A stretch of DNA of 64,000 bases, taken from a virus. The position numbers and the translations under genes are program-made. The stretch covers positions 62,001 to 126,000 of IMG/VR virus record IMGVR_UViG_3300025132_007963; one strand, given 5' to 3'. The notes below the pieces were generated by a model. It did no database searches and was not told where the DNA came from. It saw only the letters and a program-made list of their open reading frames with translations. Each line of letters starts with the position of its first letter. The stretch's first letter is position 1. Positions 227-14,534 of the stretch are shown here, piece after piece.

Positions 227-826
227 TTATTCGTTCCGATTGCCGCGAAGGTCAAAGGTTCTATCAGCAGTTATATCAACTCGACCAGGTGCACCGCCGA
301 CTCCAGTCAAAGCTGCCCAATCATACCTAAAGGTTACTTCTAGGTTATTAATCTCTTCACTCTCATAATCCAACTCATCAAAGCTAATACTTTTTATCCA
401 TGGATTATAAAGCTTCCATTCCTCTAGGGGTTTACCATCAGCATCAATTTGCTGAATATAAATTGCGCCGCCCACTGCTTCAACTGCACGTTGTTTCGAG
501 ATGGTTAACACGTTGCCAAGCGAGCGCTCATCGGTCAAAAAATTATGAGGAGAGACATATCCAGAATCTTTTAAAAGCTTCATCATGGTGGCTGAAGCGT
601 CAGGATTTACAGGATCGGCCAAGGTCATGGTGATTTCATTCCACTCAACTCTACCTGGGTAGTAAAACTTATAATTAACAAAGGTGTGTTCTGCTTCCGT
701 AATAGAAATCGCAGGCTTAGTAACCTTCTTCAATATCCACTGTGGAATGCCTCTAAAACTTAAAAGCCACCTAAACTTTCTCTTTGGTTCTACACTAAAG
801 TCTGACCAAAATCCTTCTAAAGCCAT
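227..826 (-). CDS. gp19: Tail tube protein, T4 gp19-like
   Basis: This 199-residue protein should form the stacked hexameric rings of the inner tail tube through which DNA passes. It has the T4 gp19 layout: an N-terminal FRWLLSFRGIP-type segment, then the conserved stretch TFVNYKFYYPGRVEWNEITM (about residues 48-67) followed by LADPVNPDASATMMKLL, and a C-terminal YNPWIKSISFDELDYESEEINNLEVTFRYDWA block typical of tube proteins. T4 gp19 has 163 residues, so this one is slightly longer. I chose the ATG at 826 because an AGGAGG lies 9 bases upstream; an in-frame TTG at 832 sits too close to that site. It follows the sheath gene, as in T4. It was not checked by alignment search, but the family assignment is firm. 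Confidence 0.92.
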   Translation of the reverse strand: MALEGFWSDFSVEPKRKFRWLLSFRGIPQWILKKVTKPAISITEAEHTFVNYKFYYPGRVEWNEITMTLADPVNPDASATMMKLLKDSGYVSPHNFLTDERSLGNVLTISKQRAVEAVGGAIYIQQIDADGKPLEEWKLYNPWIKSISFDELDYESEEINNLEVTFRYDWAALTGVGGAPGRVDITADRTFDLRGNRNE

Positions 827-845
827 TATCAAGATCCTCCTAAAT

Positions 846-882
846 AAGCTACGTACAATATTAAATAGTTAATACGTAGCTT
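846..882. repeat. Perfect 10-bp inverted repeat between sheath and tube genes
   Basis: AAGCTACGTA at 846-855 is exactly matched by TACGTAGCTT at 873-882, with a 17-base AT-rich loop. It fills most of the 66-base gap between the sheath stop (893) and the tube start (826). In the transcribed (minus) direction it is not followed by a clean T-run, so it is a poor intrinsic terminator. In the plus direction a T-rich stretch follows. It may be an RNA hairpin that stabilises or separates the sheath and tube messages. The repeat is seen directly; the role is inferred. Confidence 0.6.
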
Positions 883-892
883 TTATTATATT

Positions 893-3800
893 TTAATCCT
901 CAAAAGATGCGCCAGTATTCGTGATTACAAAATCAATTGCAATAAATTCAATTGCTCTTGCTGGTTTCAGGAATATCTTTGCATACATAATATTTCTATC
1001 AACTAAATCAGGCGTTGTGGTGGTTTCATCCAATTTTACTTTAAAATCAGTTAAACCAAGTCTTGCCTTAACGCTATCTAGGAACGGCTCGACCTGTCCA
1101 CGGAACCTATTCCAAGTCGCCTGAACATTCTGATCAAACAACAATCTAGAAGCAATTCTAGATATTTCTTTCTTAACGAAAATCATAAGTCTTCTAACAT
1201 TGATACGATCAAGTGCTGAGCGTGTCTGTTGTAGTGTCTTCTGACCAAAGATCACGATACCCTCTGCAGGGAAAGTCGCGATTGGGTTGATGTTTTGCTC
1301 ATACAAATCATCTCTCTCTTTTGACGTTAGTCTTTGAGAAACACCAACAACTGGTAGGCCGGCAGAACCCTCACTCAAGCCACCTCTGGTAAAACCAGCT
1401 GGTGCGAACCAAAGCTCGGAGTTTCTTTCGACTGATCCAAAAGTTCCGATTGCGACAACAGATGGCGGCACCCAAACTTGGGCATCGTTAACTGAGTCGT
1501 AAATCTTAACCCATGGAAAATAAGCACAACCATAACTGTTATTAAGATTTCTAGCCTTTATAGCAGTGACCGCTTCGGCAACAGAGTTGTTAGCAATTCT
1601 AGTCTTAAAATTACTAGTTGTTTCTGATGACGGTTGATAGCCGCCCTTTTCAATATCAATAACACCTAGAGCATCTGCTCTGCTTTCACAAACTTCAAGC
1701 ACTCTGTTGGTGACAAGCGGCTGACGAACACCAGGAACAGAAAGCATATTTATTTCCACTGCCTCTGGATCTGATAGCGAATCTATACCTCTCTTGATTG
1801 AGTGAGCTGCATAGTTTGACTTAAATTTTGGTGAAGTGCCAAATACTTGATCGCCAAACGGGTCTTTTTGCTTAATGTTAATACCATCAAACCCACCAAA
1901 AAGTGGTGCGGTAAAACTAGCAAATCCAGTTTCTAAAAGATCCGAGAAAGAGTTTCTTTCTGCTGTGTAAGACCTACCAACTCTTCTTGATCCCGATGCG
2001 TAAAAAGCAAAGTTTGCATTTGCAGGAGCAAGTGCTGCATGAGATGAAGTGTTGTTGATCATTAGGTCATCCAAACTAAAGATAAAAGAGTGCTCAGACT
2101 GAGCTGTCTTATCATAATAGCCCATGGATGCTGGACCTGGTATAACAAGATCCAAATATGATTCTTCAAACCTGGTGCTAGACGGGGTTCTGTAAGTACT
2201 AATACCAAAACAAGCCTGTCTTTGATCTGATAAGCCCTCGTCAGAACTTGAAACTCTGAGAGGAATTCTTGGGTGCTGTATTGATGCAGTCACCGCTTTT
2301 GGTAAGCTAGAAATTGGTGAAGTATTGAAACTTTGTGACAAAAGAATGTCGCTAGTATCAATAATTGTATTATTTGTTAGCACAACCTCTGGGCCAACTC
2401 GTTCGCTAAGACCCATACCCTTTATACCTTGAGTGACTAAGGTAACTGTCTTTGGCACAGGAGGACCAAAGAAACCTGCAGGCAGGCAAGCTGGATCTGA
2501 GGCGCCATTCTCTACATCGCCATCCAATTCAACTCTTACAAAGCTAGACTGATTGAGATAATTTCCATACATCCTGTATCTGTTCTGGGTTGTATCCCAT
2601 TCCTGATACATGTCACCAATCTTTTTTGCAACAAAGTTATTAGAATTGGGATTTAGGTCACATTGTGAAAATCTCTCTATAACTTGAGGTGCGCCGTCAT
2701 GATCTCGCACACGACGGAGTACAACAGTAAAAGTACCGTATGGATTAGCATCAGAACCCTTTCTTATATCAGTTATAGTAACTTTTAAGTTCTTAGCTCC
2801 CCATTCACCGTCATCAAGAGAAACAAGCTTAAATAGCTTTTGCATATTAGTCGGATTATAATTACTAGAATCATTAGTTAAGTCTTGGCTTATAAACCAA
2901 CCCGTCTTTGAGGGCTGGGTGTCAATGTTTCTGATACCCCAGTCACCAACACCACCATTAAGACCAACAACAACACCGTACAAAGAACCGTCAGCTGCTA
3001 ACGAGCCCTGACCGATGGTTGTCGTAGCTCCGTGTGTATCTTTCGCGTGTCTATCGAAACTTTCACCAAGCCAGAAATGTCTTCTCTTGGAGTTCACTGC
3101 GCTACATAGAGCTGGGTTTGTGTTAAAAACTTTTCTTATGTATCTATCACTATCGCGATCAAAGTTAAACACAATCTTTGTTGGTGTTGTCGAAGTCGCT
3201 TGGTTTTCGTAAACCAAAGCTGTAAATTCCATAAGATTTGAGTTATTTGCTTTTATAGCTATAGCTGAACCAGTTGTGGCTCCAATTCCCCCGCGCTTAG
3301 CAGAGCCGGTGCTAGGTATAGCGTTACCACTTAAGATCAAGCCACCATTATCAAAATACCAAACTGCTGCCAAAGAGCCGGTTGTTCTTGTTGAAGCACG
3401 CACCGCTCTTGGTCTTGCATCAAAAGTATCCCGAAGGTCTCTTTGGGTAGAACCTGATGTGAATAGATAAAGTCCATATGCACCGCCGCTGGTGGTGCCA
3501 CTAGTTCCGAGTGTATTGTCCGTCTTCCACCCAGCTGCAGCGCCGGCAACTGTACCGTCATCAGTGGTGCTATCGGCGTTTGGATCAGCAACGCCCAATA
3601 ATCGAACAACAGTCACTGGGCTACTATTTCTTAAATAGGCTTGAGCAGCGTAAGCAGCATATGTTGGAGCCATGTAGTTGCCTTCTCTCCAGACGTCTCC
3701 GCCTTGGCCGCCAGCGATTGGATTTCCAAATATTTCAACAAACTCACTAAAGGACCCTACAGTAACAGGACGTAAGCCAGGCCCTCGGGTCAATCGACCA

Positions 3801-3904
3801 ACTACGGCTGGACCTACTGCCTCTGCTTCTCTGGGTATTTGTGAATTATCAATCTCATTGATAAAAACACCAGGCGACACAAATTTGAATCTTCTTACGG
3901 ACAT
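893..3904 (-). CDS. gp18: Contractile tail sheath protein, T4 gp18-like
   Basis: The 1003-residue product is the subunit of the contractile sheath that surrounds the tube and shortens on infection. The N-terminus (FVSPGVFINEID, about residues 8-19) and the next 80 residues match the sheath entry domain. The last 250 residues hold the conserved C-terminal sheath domain, including FPAEGIVIFGQKTL, NVRRLMIFVKKEIS and the terminal KPARAIEFIAIDFVITNTG. T4 gp18 has 659 residues; the extra length lies mainly in a central region (about residues 110-560) rich in Gly, Ser, Thr and Asn, likely a set of outward-facing domains. The start at 3904 is backed by AAGGAG 8 bases upstream. It is downstream of the fibre gene and its terminator, and upstream of the tube gene. 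Confidence 0.94.
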   Translation of the reverse strand: MSVRRFKFVSPGVFINEIDNSQIPREAEAVGPAVVGRLTRGPGLRPVTVGSFSEFVEIFGNPIAGGQGGDVWREGNYMAPTYAAYAAQAYLRNSSPVTVVRLLGVADPNADSTTDDGTVAGAAAGWKTDNTLGTSGTTSGGAYGLYLFTSGSTQRDLRDTFDARPRAVRASTRTTGSLAAVWYFDNGGLILSGNAIPSTGSAKRGGIGATTGSAIAIKANNSNLMEFTALVYENQATSTTPTKIVFNFDRDSDRYIRKVFNTNPALCSAVNSKRRHFWLGESFDRHAKDTHGATTTIGQGSLAADGSLYGVVVGLNGGVGDWGIRNIDTQPSKTGWFISQDLTNDSSNYNPTNMQKLFKLVSLDDGEWGAKNLKVTITDIRKGSDANPYGTFTVVLRRVRDHDGAPQVIERFSQCDLNPNSNNFVAKKIGDMYQEWDTTQNRYRMYGNYLNQSSFVRVELDGDVENGASDPACLPAGFFGPPVPKTVTLVTQGIKGMGLSERVGPEVVLTNNTIIDTSDILLSQSFNTSPISSLPKAVTASIQHPRIPLRVSSSDEGLSDQRQACFGISTYRTPSSTRFEESYLDLVIPGPASMGYYDKTAQSEHSFIFSLDDLMINNTSSHAALAPANANFAFYASGSRRVGRSYTAERNSFSDLLETGFASFTAPLFGGFDGINIKQKDPFGDQVFGTSPKFKSNYAAHSIKRGIDSLSDPEAVEINMLSVPGVRQPLVTNRVLEVCESRADALGVIDIEKGGYQPSSETTSNFKTRIANNSVAEAVTAIKARNLNNSYGCAYFPWVKIYDSVNDAQVWVPPSVVAIGTFGSVERNSELWFAPAGFTRGGLSEGSAGLPVVGVSQRLTSKERDDLYEQNINPIATFPAEGIVIFGQKTLQQTRSALDRINVRRLMIFVKKEISRIASRLLFDQNVQATWNRFRGQVEPFLDSVKARLGLTDFKVKLDETTTTPDLVDRNIMYAKIFLKPARAIEFIAIDFVITNTGASFED

Positions 3905-4079: not shown

Positions 4080-7000
4080 TCAGCTTACGCCAGAACCAGA
4101 CAAGAAAGTAATTGTAAGTATATCATCGCTATCTAATGCTAGCGCTTCAGCCAAAAGGACCTTGTGAGCATTAGCACTACCGGTATTAATACGATAATCC
4201 GCACTTGTTGGACCATGCGCATTTGAACCAGGATGATCAGGATGTAACAACACACCATTCAAGTATACCATTAAGGAACCTGATGCTGGTTGTGAACTCA
4301 ACGATGCTGTTGTATATGGCGTTGGAACAGCATGTGATGCAAACATACCCTTAGTAGGTGCAGAGCCACTGATATTAGAACCATCAGCTCTAACGTGTGC
4401 TTGTCTTACGAAGCCAACACTCAATCTACCAGAAGCATACACCAAACCACCATGAGCATCAGCGTTGTTTTGAATAATATCCTTAGCCAACTTAGCCTTG
4501 GTGACCGAAGTTGCTGCTAGTTTACCAGTTGTAATTGCACTATCGACAATAGCCGCTGTGACAATAGAACCAGTTTGAACGTTATCCTGAGTTACAATAC
4601 CTGTACCATGTAGCTTATCAGTAGTAACCTGGAAGAAAGTACCGGCTGCGCCAGATACTGTCGTTGTACCAGTGATTGTAGCAGAGGTTACAGCCTCTAC
4701 TGCAGTCAAAGTACCACCGACACCCACGTTATCACCAAACGAAGCAGATACACCGTAAATAACAGCGAATTGCTTAGTTGCTGAGCCTAAGTTAACCTTT
4801 TCATCATTCTGAGGCACAAGGTTCGATATAAGGCCGGCTTGTATATTAAGGTCATCACTGTTTGCAGTACCAATCATCACTCCATTTGATGCAGTAATAC
4901 TATTAGCAGTTATACCGCCTAGGGTCGCATCATCAGCAAGGAGATCATGTGCTCTAACAGTTGAACCAGACAAGCTAGTCGAGGTCAAGGCACCGCGAAG
5001 AGCAAGGTGGCCTGCTTCTAGTCTCTTAGCTTGGATCAAAGACCCAGAGATAGAGCCAGTAACACCAAAGCGCATACCTGCAGTACCTAGAGCTGCGATT
5101 GTTGCACTACCTGATTCAAAACTAGCACCAGCTTGGCCATCAACATTGACAATAAGAGCATCACCAGTGACAGTTCTAGATCCCAAAGTCAAAGACATGA
5201 GAGGACTAGAGCCCGTACCTTGAACACCCACGGTGCCGCCAATTTGAAAACCTGCGCCGACATGATCGCCTGCCTTAGAACCAGAAACACCTGCGATGAT
5301 CAAATTATCTTTAATCTCTAAGGAGTCTTTAGTTACAGTTCTCGATACAATAGTGTCAACATCTAAAGAAGTAATCTTTGCAAAAGACGCAGTAATTGCA
5401 GTTGCAACAACTGTATCAATGTTACCAGTATCAATGTGAGCTGCAGCAAATTGCTTTGTAGAACTACCCAAGCTAACTTGACTATCATTTTGTGGAACAA
5501 AGTTTGATACAAGACCAGCTTGAATATTCAAGTCATCACTAGCTGCATTACCAATCATCATGCCACCTGAACCTGTGAATGATACCGCAGTAATTTGTGA
5601 TATCACACCCTTATCGGCTGTGACAGTCTCTGTGGTGATAGCAGAACCAGAAATAGTTCCTGCTGAAGTTACACCCTCTATCGCAGTTAGTGTTCCACCG
5701 ACGCCAACATTGTCACCAAACGAAGCAGATACGCCATAAATAACAGCGAATTGCTTGGTTGCTGAACCAAGGTTGACTTTTTCATCATTTTGCGGAACAA
5801 GATTTGATACAAGACCAGCTTGGATGTTCAAGTCATCACTGTTTGCAGTACCAATCATAACACCATTTGAAGCTGTCAAGCTGTTAACAGTTGTACCACC
5901 AAGCGTTACATCATCAGCTGTAAGATCATGGAACGTTGCAGCAGAACCTGAAACACCCTCTATCGCAGTTAGTGTTCCACCGACGCCAACATTGTCGCCA
6001 AAAGAAGCAGATACGCCATAAACAACAGCGAATTGCTTGGTTGCCGAACCAAGGTTGACTTTTTCATCATTTTGAGGAACGAGGTTTGATATAAGGCCAG
6101 CTTGGATATTCAAATCATCACTGTTTGCAGTACCGATCATTACTCCGTTTGAAGCAGTCAAACTGTTAACAGTTGTACCACCAAGTGTTACATCATCTGC
6201 AGAGAGATCATGGAACGTTGCAGCAGAACCAGATACAGTTGCAATAGCGGTTATAGAACCATCAGCAAAAGTAACCTGAGTTGTGCCAAGTTTTTGAAAT
6301 TCAAAAGATCCAGAGCCTGCATCAAGTTGCAAGAAAGAGCCTGAAATTCTAATCGAACTTTCTTCTTTTTCTGCAAATCTCTTAAAACCTTGAATGAAGC
6401 CCATAAATCTAGATCCAGTAGGTGCATTACGTGCTTGGAAATAAATCTTAGCGTTATTGCTAGCTGTGATATGCGCACCATCAGTTTGGAATTGTAAGAT
6501 ACCACCGAGACCACCTGCAGAGTTAAACTGCAAAGACCCAGAAGTACCACCGACAGCAGAACCACTATTAACGTAGTTCTTAAGATCACCTAGCTTTAAG
6601 GCATGCATATTGGAGCTGTCGGAATTATCACCGACTGCTAAAATATCAGCGTCCTGAAGATCTACAAGGTAATCACCAGTACCAATGTTACCGGCAAAGT
6701 TTAGGTGCTCAATCTCAACAGAGCCTGACGCTATCTTATCTCTAGTTATTGAACTAACTCCTAACTGTTTTGTCTGCACGGAGCCCGTTGCCAATTGATC
6801 CATTCCAATCTGGCCGGTACCGATTAGTTTTTTACCTATAAATGTTCTCGCCATTATTTCTTCTCCTGATCCTCCGCCGCCGCCGCCACCGCCGCCGCCA
6901 GCTGGAAAGTTAAAACTAAAAACACGTGTCATGCCACCGTTGTTTGCGCCTGCATTATAATCTGCGCCTGCAACAGCCATAGCTGAACCATCATACTTAA

Positions 7001-8153
7001 CCGACTGGTGTGAGTAATAACTATAATACGTCCTTTGAAAAAGTTCATTATTTGCATTATTAAGTGTACCGGTAATTACAGTTCTTTTCCAGTCGGCTGA
7101 AGTATGATACTCCCAAGCTGTTAGTTGCACTGGAAAAGCGTTATTTTCAAAGCCATGGCCGCACTTCTCTAAGATATAAAACCTATTACCGTCATTTGGG
7201 TCTGGCTCAATTGCTCTAAGATTCCATGGAAAAATATTTTCTTCTACACTAACAAAATCACCCGTAGCATCTGGTAATAGCGCGGCACCGCCAGACCCAG
7301 ACACAAATTTAAATAAATCTATCGTAGTTGGGGTTGGCAGTTGGGATATGCCACTACTATGAATATAAGGATTTTGTCCATCAGGTGATTTAATTGCTAA
7401 AAGGGTATTACTACCTGTATGGTAATACATACCAGCACCAAGGTATTCATTGGTATCACCCTGAATCGCTTCTTGGAAAGCCCAGTGGCTAGAGTTTGTT
7501 CCATCCGTGCCGTCAACTTGGCGATAATACCAAATACGGCCCCTATTACTACCACCACCGTAATCCTCGCCAATCACTATTTCAGTATCACTTATCCACT
7601 GTGATCCCTGAACGTCGGCATTACTAATATTAATTAAATCGTCTGGATCCGACCAGGAGTCACCGGAAGCATCATAGATAGAAATATTAATGTCATCTTC
7701 ACCAACTGCTGTGATGAGCAATTTATTTTTACTTGGATTTAACTTTAATGAATATTGTGATCCATAACTTTTATCATCGAGATCACCGACATCTGTAACC
7801 GTCCAGCCATCACTAGCCGTAACAAAACGAAACAAAGCATCGGTGCCTGTAGTGTTGGTTGTTGCTAAAAATTCATTATCACTAACAAAAACCATCGAAT
7901 CTATTCTTGCTGACGTGGAGCCATTGAGGGTTGGTACCAAAGATGGGCCTAAAAATGTGTACCCACTTGCACCTGATTGATAAATATCAATACCTTTTTT
8001 GTTTTCATTATTTGCTTTTTGAGTTGGTATAAATAATTTATCACCGCTAGGATTAAAATACCCACCCATATATGATGATCCCGCATGGGGACCATGAATG
8101 TTGACAAAGCTTATTGTACCCTGCTCCACAGAAGAACTTACTGAGTAAGCCAT
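4080..8153 (-). CDS. Tail fibre / adhesin with N-terminal propeller-like region, polyglycine linker and 94-residue repeats
   Basis: The product (1357 residues) is a probable receptor-binding fibre. Residues 1 to about 415 are aromatic and Asp/Gly rich with repeated short beta units (for example DNEFLATT, KLLITAVG, NTLLAIKSP), suggesting a beta-propeller-like head. A run of eleven glycines and SGEE (about 419-433) follows. From Met434 the protein looks like a separate fibre: an N-terminal attachment segment, then repeats with the fibre motif NLVPQNDEKVNLGSATKQF, three near-identical copies and one diverged. The last 90 residues contain a LMVYLNGVLL...DY domain seen in other phage fibres. There is no S74 chaperone peptidase. 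GAGGAGGAGATGGA precedes the ATG at 8153. A second ribosome site and ATG exist at 6854. Fibre identity is firm; the fold of the N-terminal part is inferred. Confidence 0.85.
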   Translation of the reverse strand: MAYSVSSSVEQGTISFVNIHGPHAGSSYMGGYFNPSGDKLFIPTQKANNENKKGIDIYQSGASGYTFLGPSLVPTLNGSTSARIDSMVFVSDNEFLATTNTTGTDALFRFVTASDGWTVTDVGDLDDKSYGSQYSLKLNPSKNKLLITAVGEDDINISIYDASGDSWSDPDDLINISNADVQGSQWISDTEIVIGEDYGGGSNRGRIWYYRQVDGTDGTNSSHWAFQEAIQGDTNEYLGAGMYYHTGSNTLLAIKSPDGQNPYIHSSGISQLPTPTTIDLFKFVSGSGGAALLPDATGDFVSVEENIFPWNLRAIEPDPNDGNRFYILEKCGHGFENNAFPVQLTAWEYHTSADWKRTVITGTLNNANNELFQRTYYSYYSHQSVKYDGSAMAVAGADYNAGANNGGMTRVFSFNFPAGGGGGGGGGGSGEEIMARTFIGKKLIGTGQIGMDQLATGSVQTKQLGVSSITRDKIASGSVEIEHLNFAGNIGTGDYLVDLQDADILAVGDNSDSSNMHALKLGDLKNYVNSGSAVGGTSGSLQFNSAGGLGGILQFQTDGAHITASNNAKIYFQARNAPTGSRFMGFIQGFKRFAEKEESSIRISGSFLQLDAGSGSFEFQKLGTTQVTFADGSITAIATVSGSAATFHDLSADDVTLGGTTVNSLTASNGVMIGTANSDDLNIQAGLISNLVPQNDEKVNLGSATKQFAVVYGVSASFGDNVGVGGTLTAIEGVSGSAATFHDLTADDVTLGGTTVNSLTASNGVMIGTANSDDLNIQAGLVSNLVPQNDEKVNLGSATKQFAVIYGVSASFGDNVGVGGTLTAIEGVTSAGTISGSAITTETVTADKGVISQITAVSFTGSGGMMIGNAASDDLNIQAGLVSNFVPQNDSQVSLGSSTKQFAAAHIDTGNIDTVVATAITASFAKITSLDVDTIVSRTVTKDSLEIKDNLIIAGVSGSKAGDHVGAGFQIGGTVGVQGTGSSPLMSLTLGSRTVTGDALIVNVDGQAGASFESGSATIAALGTAGMRFGVTGSISGSLIQAKRLEAGHLALRGALTSTSLSGSTVRAHDLLADDATLGGITANSITASNGVMIGTANSDDLNIQAGLISNLVPQNDEKVNLGSATKQFAVIYGVSASFGDNVGVGGTLTAVEAVTSATITGTTTVSGAAGTFFQVTTDKLHGTGIVTQDNVQTGSIVTAAIVDSAITTGKLAATSVTKAKLAKDIIQNNADAHGGLVYASGRLSVGFVRQAHVRADGSNISGSAPTKGMFASHAVPTPYTTASLSSQPASGSLMVYLNGVLLHPDHPGSNAHGPTSADYRINTGSANAHKVLLAEALALDSDDILTITFLSGSGVS
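4690..6232 (-). repeat. Internal coding repeats of the tail fibre, 282-bp unit
   Basis: A unit encoding about 94 residues recurs within the fibre gene. Two copies are adjacent and in register: the same GTTGAC word begins at 5772 and 6054, exactly 282 bases apart. A third close copy lies at about 4690-4940, and a diverged copy at about 5440-5570. Each encodes the core SDDLNIQAGL-SNLVPQND---LGS-TKQFA. The match extends to the nucleotide level, which indicates recent duplication or recombination between copies. Such repeats build trimeric fibre shafts in known phages. Confidence 0.88.
6429..6455. repeat. Fibre-gene copy of a 27-base near-identical repeat
   Basis: This segment within the fibre gene (encoding NAKIYFQAR) matches 8259-8285 in the spacer upstream of the gene at 26 of 27 bases. 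See the partner entry. Confidence 0.85.
6852..6867 (-). promoter_or_regulatory. Internal ribosome binding site and start codon inside the fibre gene
   Basis: Directly after the polyglycine codons the minus strand reads AGGAG (6867-6863), an 8-base spacer, then ATG at 6854-6852, in frame with the fibre. It is as good as the sites that start other genes here. Translation from it would give a 924-residue fibre (MARTFIGKKLIGTGQIGM...) without the propeller-like head. The Gly-Ser-Gly-Glu-Glu that encodes the site resembles a former intergenic leader that became coding. Confidence 0.6.
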
Positions 8154-8258
8154 TCCATCTCCTCCTCTTTCAAATTAAGAACGCCTCTAAAAGAAGGTTA
8201 ACTTTAAATTTAATTTAATTAACGGACGAACAGGATATGTGTAAAATAACTGGGCGAG

Positions 8259-8285
8259 ACGCGCTTGGAAATAAATCTTAGCGTT
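8259..8285. repeat. Spacer copy of a 27-base fibre fragment
   Basis: The block matches 6429-6455 inside the fibre at 26 of 27 bases. It lies in the 131-base spacer between the DUF5659-like gene and the fibre gene, and its edge overlaps the stop codon of the former. The reading frame that would continue NAKIYFQAR stays open for about two dozen further codons in the spacer, but it has no start of its own. It looks like the scar of a lost or exchanged fibre gene copy. Confidence 0.8.
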
Positions 8286-8518
8286 TACGAAAATAATACT
8301 TTTTTAAGATTTCTGACAATATTGTCAAATTTGCAAAAATCTGAACTTAAAAATTCAAAAGATAGATCTTTGCATTGATCATCGACTTCTTCAAATTCAA
8401 AATGAAATCTACCATTTTGCCTTCTTTCACATCGCAATAGTTTAAAGCCCTTCAACTGGAGATAAGCTGCGATACCTATGTCAGATGTAATGAACGTTTC
8501 TGTTGTGTTTTCTTTCAT
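8285..8518 (-). CDS. Small DUF5659-like protein
   Basis: The protein has 77 residues. The N-terminal half contains TSDIGIAAYLQLKGFKLL, matching the pattern T-S-D-x-x-x-A-x-Y-L-x-x-x-G-F known for the DUF5659 family of small phage proteins. It is followed by a short beta strand pair (GRFHFEFE) and an amphipathic C-terminal helix. The role of this family is unknown to me. The ATG at 8518 has AAGGAAAAAAGC upstream. It sits alone between the acidic protein gene and the fibre gene, with AT-rich spacers on both sides. The family call is by recalled motif, not search. Confidence 0.6.
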   Translation of the reverse strand: MKENTTETFITSDIGIAAYLQLKGFKLLRCERRQNGRFHFEFEEVDDQCKDLSFEFLSSDFCKFDNIVRNLKKVLFS

Positions 8519-9016: not shown

Positions 9017-10276
9017 TTATTTTGATGATATAATGTAGCTAATTAGCATATTTTCATCGACGTCTGGTGCTTCAGCAAATTGTATCATTGAATCGTTTAC
9101 TATTATATAGTCATCGGCTTGGCCGGGTTTCATTAAAATTCCATCTCTAAATACCATTTCTGAACCGCTAACAAATGTATGAAAAGTAACAAATCTTGTT
9201 GTTGAATTGTCCCCAACTCCACCTGCTGGAATTTTAAATTCAGTTCTTGCAATATAATTATCTGTTGTGATCGGATTACCACTGGTAAACGAAGTGCCGG
9301 TGTCTACTTTCTTGTTTACCAAGGGTGGGCCTGGTCTTGTATCTGACGACAATATGAATTGCTGCTCGTCCACTAGTTTTAAACTAGCTAACCCAGCGAG
9401 GCCATAATACCTACCCTCTTCGAATTCAGGCTCGTCTCCAAAAACTATTCTCTCTCTTGGTATTTTTACCGAAACTGCGTTTTCTCTTATCGCATACCTT
9501 GGCTGCTCTTGGTTGCCTTTTTCTCCAATAAGATATGCTAAGACTTTGATCTCTATCGTTGTCTCTACTTTTCTTTCCTCGTTTGTAAAAGAGTTATAGT
9601 TATTGTTTTGATTAAAATCCTGTTGTATAAACCCCTCATACCTATGGTTTTCTTTCTCTATTAAAATATAATTAACGCCGCCTGGTTTTGTGATAAACGG
9701 TGTCACAACATCATTCATTTGTTCTTGATATTCTGTTCTAATATTAATTTTATATGTTACTTCGACATAAACTGGCAATGGGATAGATACAGTTTCATAA
9801 ACTATTTTATTTGGTCGATAACCAGGAAAGTTCACTTGGCCTTTTCTTCTTTGACTTTCTGCATTTATAAAGTTTGAAGTTTTGTCATGCTTTATTCGTC
9901 TAGCTACTCTAATCGAGCCACCTTTTTCATCTGCTACCGGGACGACATTGCCCCATATTGAACCTTTTTTTGACAAATCTTTTGCAACATTAGTTCTTTC
10001 TATAGAAATAATCGGCAATATTAAAGCGCCTGTTGAATCTCTAAATAATCTGTCTTTTTTCGCAGAAAAGCCTCTTTCTGGCGATACCCATACCACAGGA
10101 ACTCTTTCAAAACCTTTGTGTGTTGTTGTAAAAATATTTAATTTATTTTCAACATAATCTAACATAGCGGCATCTACGTTATCAATAGTTGACGGAGCAA
10201 ATGGGATTGATTTTGTATAAGTTGATGGAACTTGGCTTGGTAAAAGACCCTTCCTTTCATCTAGTTTTCTCTTCAT
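9017..10276 (-). CDS. gp15-like tail completion protein, paralog B with extra C-terminal domain
   Basis: Residues 1 to about 290 align throughout with the neighbouring gp15-like gene (FERVPVVWVSPERGF, LILPIISIERT, YKINIRTEYQEQMNDVVTPF, RYEGFIQ). That pattern corresponds to T4 gp15 (IRVPITYAS, ILPRI, YELSIFTRYEDDMFQIVEQI), the hexamer that caps the tail and stabilises the sheath. Residues from about 295 to 419 form an added domain absent from the paralog, ending GSEMVFRDGILMKP...DDYIIV...LISYI. It resembles the VYLNG-type C-terminal domain of the fibre in this window. The ATG overlaps the paralog's stop (ATGA), so translation is probably coupled. Which copy is the working tail cap cannot be told. 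Confidence 0.75.
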   Translation of the reverse strand: MKRKLDERKGLLPSQVPSTYTKSIPFAPSTIDNVDAAMLDYVENKLNIFTTTHKGFERVPVVWVSPERGFSAKKDRLFRDSTGALILPIISIERTNVAKDLSKKGSIWGNVVPVADEKGGSIRVARRIKHDKTSNFINAESQRRKGQVNFPGYRPNKIVYETVSIPLPVYVEVTYKINIRTEYQEQMNDVVTPFITKPGGVNYILIEKENHRYEGFIQQDFNQNNNYNSFTNEERKVETTIEIKVLAYLIGEKGNQEQPRYAIRENAVSVKIPRERIVFGDEPEFEEGRYYGLAGLASLKLVDEQQFILSSDTRPGPPLVNKKVDTGTSFTSGNPITTDNYIARTEFKIPAGGVGDNSTTRFVTFHTFVSGSEMVFRDGILMKPGQADDYIIVNDSMIQFAEAPDVDENMLISYIISSK

Positions 10277-11148
10277 TCGTTTGAATCCTCTGGTATTCCA
10301 GACAAGCCATAAAATGATCCACCATCATTCTCTAATTCATCATTAAATACTATCCTTTCTCTTGGAATTTTAACTTCCACTGAGCTTTCTCTAAAAACAA
10401 AATTTGGATTTGTTCTGTTTTTATCTTCTCCTAGTAGATATCCCAAAACTTCTATATTTATTTTTGTCTCAATTTTTCTTTCATCATCTGTAAAGGAGGT
10501 ATAGTTATTGTTTTGTGCAAAAACCTCTCTTATGAAGCCTTCGTATCTATGGTTTTGATTTTTTAAAAGAATATAATTTATACCACCTGGCACAGTTGCA
10601 AAAGGTGTGATTATTTCATTCATTTGTTGTTGATATTCTGTTCGAATGGTAATCTCATAATTTGCAACAATATAAACTGGGATTGGTATCGTTACTGTTT
10701 CATAGACAACCTTTTTATAATTCGAATTTGGGAAATTTATCCTACCTTTTGATTTTTTTGTTTTTGCATTTACAAAATTTGATGTCTTTTGATGGTTGAT
10801 TCTTCTAGCAACCGGTATTGTACCGCCCTTCTCATCGTCAACAGGCAATACATTCCCCCAAACAGTACCCTTCTTTGAAAGAGACTTTGTTACGCTTGTT
10901 CTTTCAATAGTTATTAGTGGTAAAATTAAAGTTCCGGTGTTATCTCTTACTTGCGAATCTTTCTTGCTCTGAAATGGTCGCTCAGCTCCGGACCAAACCA
11001 CTGGGACTTTTGTCCATCCTTTATTTGTTGTCGCAAAAAGGTTTAACTCTTCGTCAATGTATCTAATCATTGACTTGTCTATGTTTTCAATTGTTGATAT
11101 TGGAAACGGTATATCTTTTAATCTTTCCAAGTTATTATTAAGTGGCAT
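10273..11148 (-). CDS. gp15: gp15-like tail completion and sheath stabiliser protein, paralog A
   Basis: The protein (292 residues from the chosen start) has the T4 gp15 layout: WTKVPVVWSGAERPF, LILPLITIERTSV, YEITIRTEYQQQMNEIITPF and a C-terminal VLGYLLGE segment. T4 gp15 has 272 residues, so the size fits. I set the start at 11148 (MPLNNNLERLKD) because it has GAGGGG upstream and matches the N-terminus of the paralog. The longer frame to 11232 lies inside the gp14 gene and its first 28 residues have no counterpart. It overlaps gp14 by 11 bases and the next gene by ATGA. The order gp13-gp14-gp15 is as in T4. Confidence 0.85.
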   Translation of the reverse strand: MPLNNNLERLKDIPFPISTIENIDKSMIRYIDEELNLFATTNKGWTKVPVVWSGAERPFQSKKDSQVRDNTGTLILPLITIERTSVTKSLSKKGTVWGNVLPVDDEKGGTIPVARRINHQKTSNFVNAKTKKSKGRINFPNSNYKKVVYETVTIPIPVYIVANYEITIRTEYQQQMNEIITPFATVPGGINYILLKNQNHRYEGFIREVFAQNNNYTSFTDDERKIETKINIEVLGYLLGEDKNRTNPNFVFRESSVEVKIPRERIVFNDELENDGGSFYGLSGIPEDSNE

Positions 11149-11626
11149 CAAATAACCCCTCGCGAGCCTTGACGCACTCAGCGCTAATTTCCATTTGATG
11201 GTTAATTTGACCAAATATTTGCTTTGGCTCATTTAAAGTAGTTATTTCGTAATAGCTATCTCCGTAAGCCACAAAATCACCTTCCCTGACAAACAAATCT
11301 TGATCTTCTGTAAGTCTTCTTTTGTGAAAATGAACAGTGATTTTTGATTTTCTATCCACACCCAAATTTGTAGTCTCGGTTTCGTACCCTTGCCACTCAA
11401 CAAGAGCATAGACCCTGATCGGATTAAAAAATGTCTTTTTTATGGCCTCTCCATAAATAGGATGATAGTCAGTATGCTCTAGACTTATCGGATAGTACAA
11501 GAGTTGTTGGCCAATGACGTTTTCAATAAGTTCATCATTAACTTGCTTAACATAATCCCTCTCCTTTTTGCCCAAAAAGAGCGGAGGAGGTGGTTTTTTA
11601 GGTTGTGACCATTTGTTATCAGCCAT
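11138..11626 (-). CDS. gp14: Head completion / neck protein, T4 gp14-like
   Basis: The product (162 residues) matches the first two thirds of T4 gp14: an N-terminal segment leading to QQLLYYPIS, then HPIYGEAIKKTFFNPIRVYALVEWQGYE (compare gp14 around its FGEDLKNKFTKAWKFAAYL), then EGDFVAYGDSYYEITTLNEPKQIFGQINHQMEISAE. T4 gp14 is 256 residues, so this is a short form without the C-terminal tail. It should form, with gp13, the ring joining the filled head to the tail. Four bases separate it from the gp13 gene. The N-terminal KKPPPPLFLGKKE looks like a flexible arm. Confidence 0.83.
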   Translation of the reverse strand: MADNKWSQPKKPPPPLFLGKKERDYVKQVNDELIENVIGQQLLYYPISLEHTDYHPIYGEAIKKTFFNPIRVYALVEWQGYETETTNLGVDRKSKITVHFHKRRLTEDQDLFVREGDFVAYGDSYYEITTLNEPKQIFGQINHQMEISAECVKAREGLFDAT

Positions 11627-13408: not shown

Positions 13409-13942
13409 TCAAGCAGGAGTGAAGCCATCAGCAGCATTGGTAATATTAATCGCACTGGCAGTTAAAACACTACCATTGATATACCAATCAGTGCCGTCGC
13501 ATTCAACCTCTAAAAAGTCACCTACTGTTGCTGCACCGTCATTTGAATCAATCGCAACAGCTGAAGTAGCACTGGTAACTTCAACATGTGCACCATTCAC
13601 AATAATGGATCCGTTGATATCAACGCTATCACTGTTTGTATTAAGCAAAAAGTCCTTCGTAGCTTCGTTATCACTAGCAACACTCATAACAAATTTGTAA
13701 TGTAACCCAGCTGCAGGAGCTGGTAGTGTGCAAACAACACTTACAGTGCTGATATCGCAAAAAAATGTTTTACCAGAATCTGCAGCTGTAAGGGTCTTTG
13801 TTGGCGAAGCCACTGAACCTACCGTGCTTAGTGTTTCTACAGAAGTGCTAACACCCGAAAGTGTTGCATTTCCCAACGCTAAGTCTCTTTTCAAATTTTC
13901 AATTAATGCCTCTACTCTCGCAAGGCCAATTCTTCTACTCAT
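13409..13942 (-). CDS. Beta-rich probable virion protein, tandem paralog 2
   Basis: The 177-residue product starts with a helical RIGLARVEALIENLKRDLALGNATLSGV segment, followed by a Thr/Ser/Asp-rich beta domain containing LTAADSGKTFFCDIST, GLHYKFVMSVASDNE and FLEVECDGTDWYINGS. Such GTDWYVNG domains occur in phage decoration and fibre proteins, so an outer-capsid or fibre role is likely but unproven. The start at 13942 (MSRRIGLARV) has AAGGAGAATATAATT upstream and matches the paralog; a TTG 36 bases earlier is not needed. It lies just after the capsid gene and its paralog, the place where head decoration genes often sit. Confidence 0.75.
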   Translation of the reverse strand: MSRRIGLARVEALIENLKRDLALGNATLSGVSTSVETLSTVGSVASPTKTLTAADSGKTFFCDISTVSVVCTLPAPAAGLHYKFVMSVASDNEATKDFLLNTNSDSVDINGSIIVNGAHVEVTSATSAVAIDSNDGAATVGDFLEVECDGTDWYINGSVLTASAINITNAADGFTPA

Positions 13943-13962
13943 AATTATATTCTCCTTCCTAT

Positions 13963-13974
13963 TGAGTTTTATAC
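13963..13974 (-). promoter_or_regulatory. Shared leader element, copy 2
   Basis: GTATAAAACTCA lies 20 bases before the start of paralog 2 and is repeated exactly before paralog 1. It resembles a -10 or T4 late-type TATAAA box, but it may only be a relic of the gene duplication. Confidence 0.3.
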
Positions 13975-13997
13975 GCAATGTCTAAAACACAAACTTA

Positions 13998-14534
13998 TTA
14001 TGCAGGCGTAATTCCGCCAGTTGCATTATTGATAGCCAGTATGGATGCGGTTAAGGCACTACCTTTAATATACCAATCAGTGCCATCACAACTAACCTCT
14101 AGAAAATCGCCCACAGTGGCGGCACCTTCGGAGGTATCAAAGGCCACTGCTGAAGTAGCATTGGTAACTTCAACGTGCGCACCATTTACTATAACAGAGC
14201 CATTGATATCTACAGCATTGTCACCAGTATTTAACAAAAAATCCTTCGCAGTTTCATTGTCACTAGCTACACTTAGGATGAACTTATAAGTCAATCCGGC
14301 TGCAGGTGTTGGTAATGTACAAACAACACTCACGGTGCTAATATCTATGAAGAAAACTTTTCCCGAATCTGCAGCTGATAGTCTTTTTGTAGGTGCTGCT
14401 AATGTGCCAACCGTGCTTAGTGTTTCTGTTGCCTTGCTAACGCCTGAGAGCGTAGCGTTTCCAAGAGCTAAGTCTCTCTTTAAACTCTCAATTAACGCCT
14501 CGGTTCTTGCGAGGCCAATTCTTTTCTTACCCAT
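13998..14534 (-). CDS. Beta-rich probable virion protein, tandem paralog 1
   Basis: This 178-residue protein is a close paralog of the next gene along its whole length: RIGLARTEALIESLKRDLALGNATLSGV, LSAADSGKVFFIDIST, GLTYKFILSVASDNE, FLEVSCDGTDWYIKGS. The same helical start and beta body suggest a trimeric or capsid-bound structural protein. The start at 14534 has AGGAGAATATAAAC upstream. It is separated from the capsid gene by a strong terminator, so it needs read-through or its own promoter. The pair probably arose by tandem duplication including the leader. Confidence 0.75.
   Translation of the reverse strand: MGKKRIGLARTEALIESLKRDLALGNATLSGVSKATETLSTVGTLAAPTKRLSAADSGKVFFIDISTVSVVCTLPTPAAGLTYKFILSVASDNETAKDFLLNTGDNAVDINGSVIVNGAHVEVTNATSAVAFDTSEGAATVGDFLEVSCDGTDWYIKGSALTASILAINNATGGITPA

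Follow-up and report, generated by a model that had tools for sequence, protein, structure and literature searches.

The tail fibre gene described here quite probably gives rise to two proteins, one with and one without an N-terminal head. A head has been fused in frame to a shaft gene that retained its own Shine-Dalgarno (SD) sequence and start codon, so that one message would yield a fibre with a head as well as one without it. We regard this as probable because the original SD sequence and start codon persist at every joint between head and shaft that was found among the relatives.

The fibre gene and its position in the tail gene cluster

The analyzed stretch (the window) comprises 64 kb of a virus record of 192,821 bases. 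According to the ORF list, the fibre gene lies on the minus strand at 4080..8153, spans 1357 codons, and encodes a fusion of head, linker, and shaft. Its full-length start (ATG at 8153) is preceded by the SD sequence AGGAGGAG (8159..8166, minus strand) and, with a pairing energy (dG) of −12.0, represents the strongest start site of the ORF. The head comprises residues 1–416 (6906..8153, minus strand) and the shaft residues 434–1357 (924 aa; 4080..6854, minus strand). As seen in alignments, the shaft consists of a conserved N-terminus (MART), repeats, and a conserved C-terminal domain.

The next gene downstream (893..3904, minus strand) encodes the tail sheath protein (PHROG 23, tail sheath, E = 1.4e-72). 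The fibre gene is flanked by neck-type genes and by the tail sheath and tube genes, and the order neck-fibre-sheath is conserved in four related loci (L010, L013, L014, and L015). For the full-length fibre protein, no Pfam match above the cut-off and no PHROG match were obtained, nor did the window protein itself have a direct match among isolate phage proteins; members of its family match a 'putative tail fiber' of a Roseobacter phage. At the family level, the gene thus shows the hallmarks of a tail fibre, i.e. a shaft of repeats with relatives among annotated tail fibres and a location within the tail gene cluster.

The shaft as a separate gene and its fused relatives

When virus-contig proteins were searched with the head alone, the matches were two nearly identical gene copies (L005 and L006), which derive from two further metagenome assemblies. 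With the shaft as query, three kinds of relatives were recovered. The first kind comprises stand-alone shaft genes in four lineages (L014, L030, L137, and L062/L065/L066), which begin with the homologous Met-Ala-Arg-Thr as their first codons and have an SD sequence of their own. In the second kind (L009, L010–L012, L013, L021, L025, L031, and L147), the shaft is joined to a different head. The third kind consists of more distant shafts with a fused head: (i) L015, with a head homologous to that of the window followed by further domains; (ii) L166, with a head of the other family followed by a ZU5 domain; and (iii) L162, with a head that also belongs to the other family. Both L166 and L162 were found by searches that made no use of the junction DNA.

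A preliminary description of this DNA had read the residues after Met434 as a complete fibre protein, which agrees with the stand-alone homologues that start there. Its view of the gene as two separate modules joined together was likewise borne out, given that the shaft occurs alone, that the heads are exchangeable and unrelated, and that the linkers vary; the homologues do not all combine head and shaft in a single protein with a conserved linker. Of the two parts, the shaft was found as its own gene in relatives, but in 14 records neither head family occurred outside fusions; the sole additional match (G005) proved to be a fusion as well, and isolate phages contained none. The isolate phage collection held no match to the head or shaft of the window or to the other heads, and no relative was detected in bacterial and archaeal genome contigs. 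Among solved structures, a search by sequence returned nothing for the shaft and a mere chance match for the head. Extending the search past the close group with the sheath as anchor led to distant relatives that do not carry this fibre gene beside the sheath.

Several of the related phages carry additional fibre or sheath genes. In phages with a stand-alone MART shaft (L029/L060 and L137/L032), the cluster includes a second fibre gene, located directly upstream of the sheath gene in the L029/L060 record. One record (G005, the record of L026; L157 and L156) combines a short stand-alone fibre (starting with MARTKRKVH) and a fused fibre with an L025-type head. In L058, tandem tail sheath genes (612–3884 and from 3983) were observed on one contig.

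The joint between head and shaft in the window

The sequence across the joint is CCA GCT GGC GGC GGC GGT GGC GGC GGC GGC GGA GGA TCA GGA GAA GAA ATA ATG GCG AGA ACA. It includes a run of ten glycine codons (residues 419–428; 6870..6899, minus strand), identical in L005 and L006, and the residues after this run are SGEEI followed by Met434. Eleven glycines had been counted in the preliminary description, a number that is reached if Gly430 is included; the consecutive run is ten, followed by Ser-Gly. The internal signal had been given correctly: AGGAG (6863..6867, minus strand), a spacer of 8 nt, and an ATG (6852..6854, minus strand) are all present in the DNA and in frame. This ATG, the codon of Met434, is homologous to the first codon of the stand-alone shaft genes.

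The internal SD sequence of the window has a dG of −7.4, the same value as at the real start of the stand-alone gene in L014. It is the weakest among the 11 joints and is partly paired in the predicted fold. Approximately 5.4% of synonymous re-codings of the last seven codons matched its strength (p = 0.054). By itself, the window therefore places an internal start at the borderline of what exceeds chance, and the internal start of this gene taken singly is suggestive.

Conservation of the internal start across fusion joints

An in-frame SD sequence and start codon were present at all 11 distinct fusion joints (10 ATG and one GTG). We computed the pairing energy with the 16S tail for each in-frame start and used −7.4 kcal/mol as the threshold. 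Every joint reached it, i.e. those of the window, L147, L009, L010–012, L013, L021, L025, L031, L015, L162, and L166. SD sequence and spacer (in nt) were AGGAG-8 in the window, AGGAG-9 in L147, AGGAGGT-9 in L009 and L031, GGAGGT-9 in L010, GGAGGT-8 in L013, AGGAGG-10 in L021 and L025, AGGAGGT-6 in L015 and L166, and AAGGAGGTGA-4 before the GTG of L162. Among the other in-frame starts in the fused ORFs, the threshold was reached by 5 of 225 ATGs and 1 of 185 GTGs. When all long ORFs of the loci were considered, the same held for 12 of 787 other internal in-frame ATGs (1.5%), compared with 57% of the first ATGs of ORFs.

As a null model, the last seven codons of each joint were re-coded synonymously by the gene's own codon use. 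The resulting p-values ranged from 0.0008 to 0.12 per joint. Combined by Fisher's method, they gave p = 6e-8 for the 11 joints and p = 4e-5 for six groups represented by the worst p of each; these values are approximate and serve as guides, since the joints share ancestry and are not fully independent. Glycine codons provided a further measure. Of the 22 that lie no more than 18 nt before the joint start, 15 (68%) were GGA; the share was 14 of 50 in the more distant part of the linker (p = 0.002) and 17% in the remainder of these genes (p = 2e-7). Gly-Gly linkers of themselves favour GGAGG to some extent.

Two joints distinguish between the peptide and the signal. In L147, the SD sequence is translated as Glu-Glu, whereas it is mostly Gly-Gly in the other fusions. 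In L162, the start is GTG, so that the fused protein contains a valine and initiation would stay possible. What persists thus seems to be the initiation signal and not the peptide. As judged from the DNA, the occurrence of an SD sequence with a start codon at the joints is far above chance across the relatives, and the internal start looks to be maintained by selection in the family. Two sequence properties expected of a functional internal translational start site (iTSS) were found, namely an in-frame SD sequence and start at a domain boundary and conservation beyond synonymous expectation.

Head families and their exchange

The 11 distinct fusions carry two unrelated head families. Residues 1–416 of the window are homologous to residues 1–401 of the L015 head (BLASTP E = 1.9e-5, 21% over 435 columns). 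All remaining fused heads belong to a second family, whose members have diverged from one another and end in a 'GMS' motif. L147 has a shaft start like that of the window, a linker of 14 glycines, and a head of the other family; the shaft start of L166 resembles that of L015, but its head belongs to the other family. Since similar shaft starts are paired with unrelated heads in both cases, the heads have been exchanged.

With the tail sheath protein as phylogenetic marker, phages with fused and stand-alone shafts interleaved in the tree. L031 (fused) is sister to L062/L065/L066 (stand-alone), and the window is placed on a separate branch. In L056, its nearest relative by sheath, the front part of the fibre gene is missing. 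The fused heads of L009, L010, L021, and L147 are 53–70% identical, and 0.51–0.64 of their shared 4-fold sites differ, which is near saturation. Given this divergence, the fused state is old and the SD sequence has outlived most synonymous change, so that its retention does not simply reflect youth. A recent fusion, as had been considered in the preliminary description, is therefore at odds with the heads at the family level.

The head of the window had also been described as propeller-like. This is plausible, and the head is a candidate beta-propeller, as its predicted structure (AlphaFold) is all-beta and the Foldseek matches are beta-propellers (e.g. the DPP4 and eIF3b propellers); at TM scores of about 0.3, these matches give no more than a hint of the fold. 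The predicted models of this head (pLDDT 39.8) and of the other head family (pLDDT 46.2) were too poor to use. No repeats were detected in the heads above the Pfam cut-off (PD40, E = 0.6 for L015).

Proposed origin and products of the fused gene

We propose that a shaft gene repeatedly received N-terminal heads, which were added or swapped in frame, and that its own ribosome-binding site and start codon now lie within the translated linker. Initiation at 8153 would produce the headed fibre of 1357 aa. Initiation at 6854 on the same message would produce the headless shaft of 924 aa, as in the shaft-only relatives. The internal start would have been kept because both products are needed. Since tail fibres are usually trimers, headed and headless chains might co-assemble through the shaft, in which case use of the internal start would set the number of heads per fibre. 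Alternatively, the two products might form two separate fibres, a long and a short one. The linker glycines beside the joint may be viewed as a translated SD sequence. Taken together, these steps would make the shaft start a platform for head exchange, where unrelated domains are repeatedly added, the retained start supplies a headless partner, mixed trimers carry a controlled number of heads, and the glycines at the joint are the translated SD sequence. We put forward this combined reading tentatively and consider it rather less probable than the production of two proteins as such.

Among other explanations, a relic of module exchange deserves most attention, even if we consider it unlikely. 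Heads would recombine at the conserved stretch of SD sequence, ATG, and MART codons, and the signal would be carried along unused. Heads do get swapped, and the conserved MART DNA offers a natural crossover site; however, the heads of L009, L010, L021, and L147 seem to have been inherited in the fused state from one ancestor, and the SD sequence was retained while third positions approached saturation and linkers changed. A passively carried signal also does not account for the restriction of GGA enrichment to the SD position or for the persistence of the SD sequence of L147 in a different reading frame. A role in elongation appears improbable. Here, the SD-like sequence would cause the ribosome to pause between head and shaft and aid co-translational folding, with no second protein being made. 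According to one proposal, which is contested, SD-like sequences within genes slow elongation (PMC5100845). Such a pause needs no start codon 4–10 nt downstream, and it leaves unexplained both the change from ATG to GTG that keeps initiation and the stand-alone homologues that start at the joint codon.

Slightly less probable still is an accident, in which a glycine-rich linker before a conserved methionine happens to spell an SD sequence. For the window singly this is hard to dismiss (p about 0.05), as Gly-Gly codons can spell GGAGG, but it would have to apply to 11 of 11 joints (combined p of 4e-5 or smaller) and to a GGA share of 68% at the SD position against 17% of the glycine codons in these genes. 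Hardly credible, finally, is the suggestion of the preliminary description that slippage in the glycine codons toggles the head by frameshift. The GGN run is indeed repetitive, yet its unit is a triplet, so that slippage by units alters length and not frame. All three assemblies (window, L005, and L006) have ten glycines, L010, L011, and L012 share one length, and a slip by one base would terminate translation 14 or 21 residues later. We also rejected the classification as a phase-variable (frameshift-switched) gene, as the repeat unit is a multiple of three and no length variants were present across the three assemblies.

Comparison with known systems

The mechanism of an internal in-frame start is already known from phage endolysins, where such starts are established to give full-length and short forms that co-assemble (PMC12203907). 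Endolysins with internal translational start sites (Ply2638A, CTP1L, and LysIME-EF1; PMC12203907) likewise represent modular phage genes with an in-frame start at a domain boundary. In contrast, the present case concerns a tail fibre, the short product would be the shaft without its head, the heads are interchangeable and unrelated, and the products are predicted from sequence. A conserved scaffold start is nested in frame in the Mu-type protease/scaffold gene (PMC4378225), which resembles the fibre gene as a structural phage gene with an internal start, an SD sequence about 8–9 nt away, and conservation across diverged relatives. There, the nested arrangement serves head assembly, whereas in the fibre it would arise repeatedly by fusion with different N-terminal domains. 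The Rpn 'gene within a gene' toxin-antitoxin proteins differ in being a defence toxin with its inhibitor and not a part of the virion (PMC10327210).

Repeat tail fibres of marine phages are related to the shaft, with shaft repeats of the family matching Roseobacter CRP phages and Pelagibacter phage structural proteins (tblastn, 34–62% over parts); by contrast, the head and shaft of the window and the other heads are without an isolate match. SD-like sequences are depleted within highly expressed bacterial genes (PMC5100845), which makes a persistent intragenic one stand out. We found no report of an internal start in a tail fibre in the open-access literature searched, which does not prove that none exists.

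If the proposed two products are made, phages could alter the outer parts of a fibre and yet keep a working one, since the original protein would still come from the old start after a new head has been joined in frame. This would make clear why a fibre can tolerate a large N-terminal addition and how unequal subunits come to share one fibre. Annotators would also have to be aware that such genes encode two proteins.

Further observations at the locus

A stretch of 23 bases in the shaft DNA, AACGCTAAGATTTATTTCCAAGC (minus strand; window 6433–6455), is repeated exactly at 8263–8285, in the gap that precedes the fibre gene. This repeat is possibly a scar of the recombination that built the fusion. 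A small ORF of 77 aa with a match to DUF5659 (Pfam E = 6.7e-8) is located directly upstream of the fibre gene (8286–8518, minus strand), and its stop abuts the 23-base repeat. Two further pairs of adjacent genes were noted on the minus strand. The genes at 9017–10276 and 10273–11232 are similar to each other, the first being extended by a C-terminal domain that, on visual inspection, looks like the C-terminus of the fibre. Those at 13409–13978 and 13998–14534 are near-duplicates (IGLAR.EALIE.LKRDLALGNATLSGVS...).
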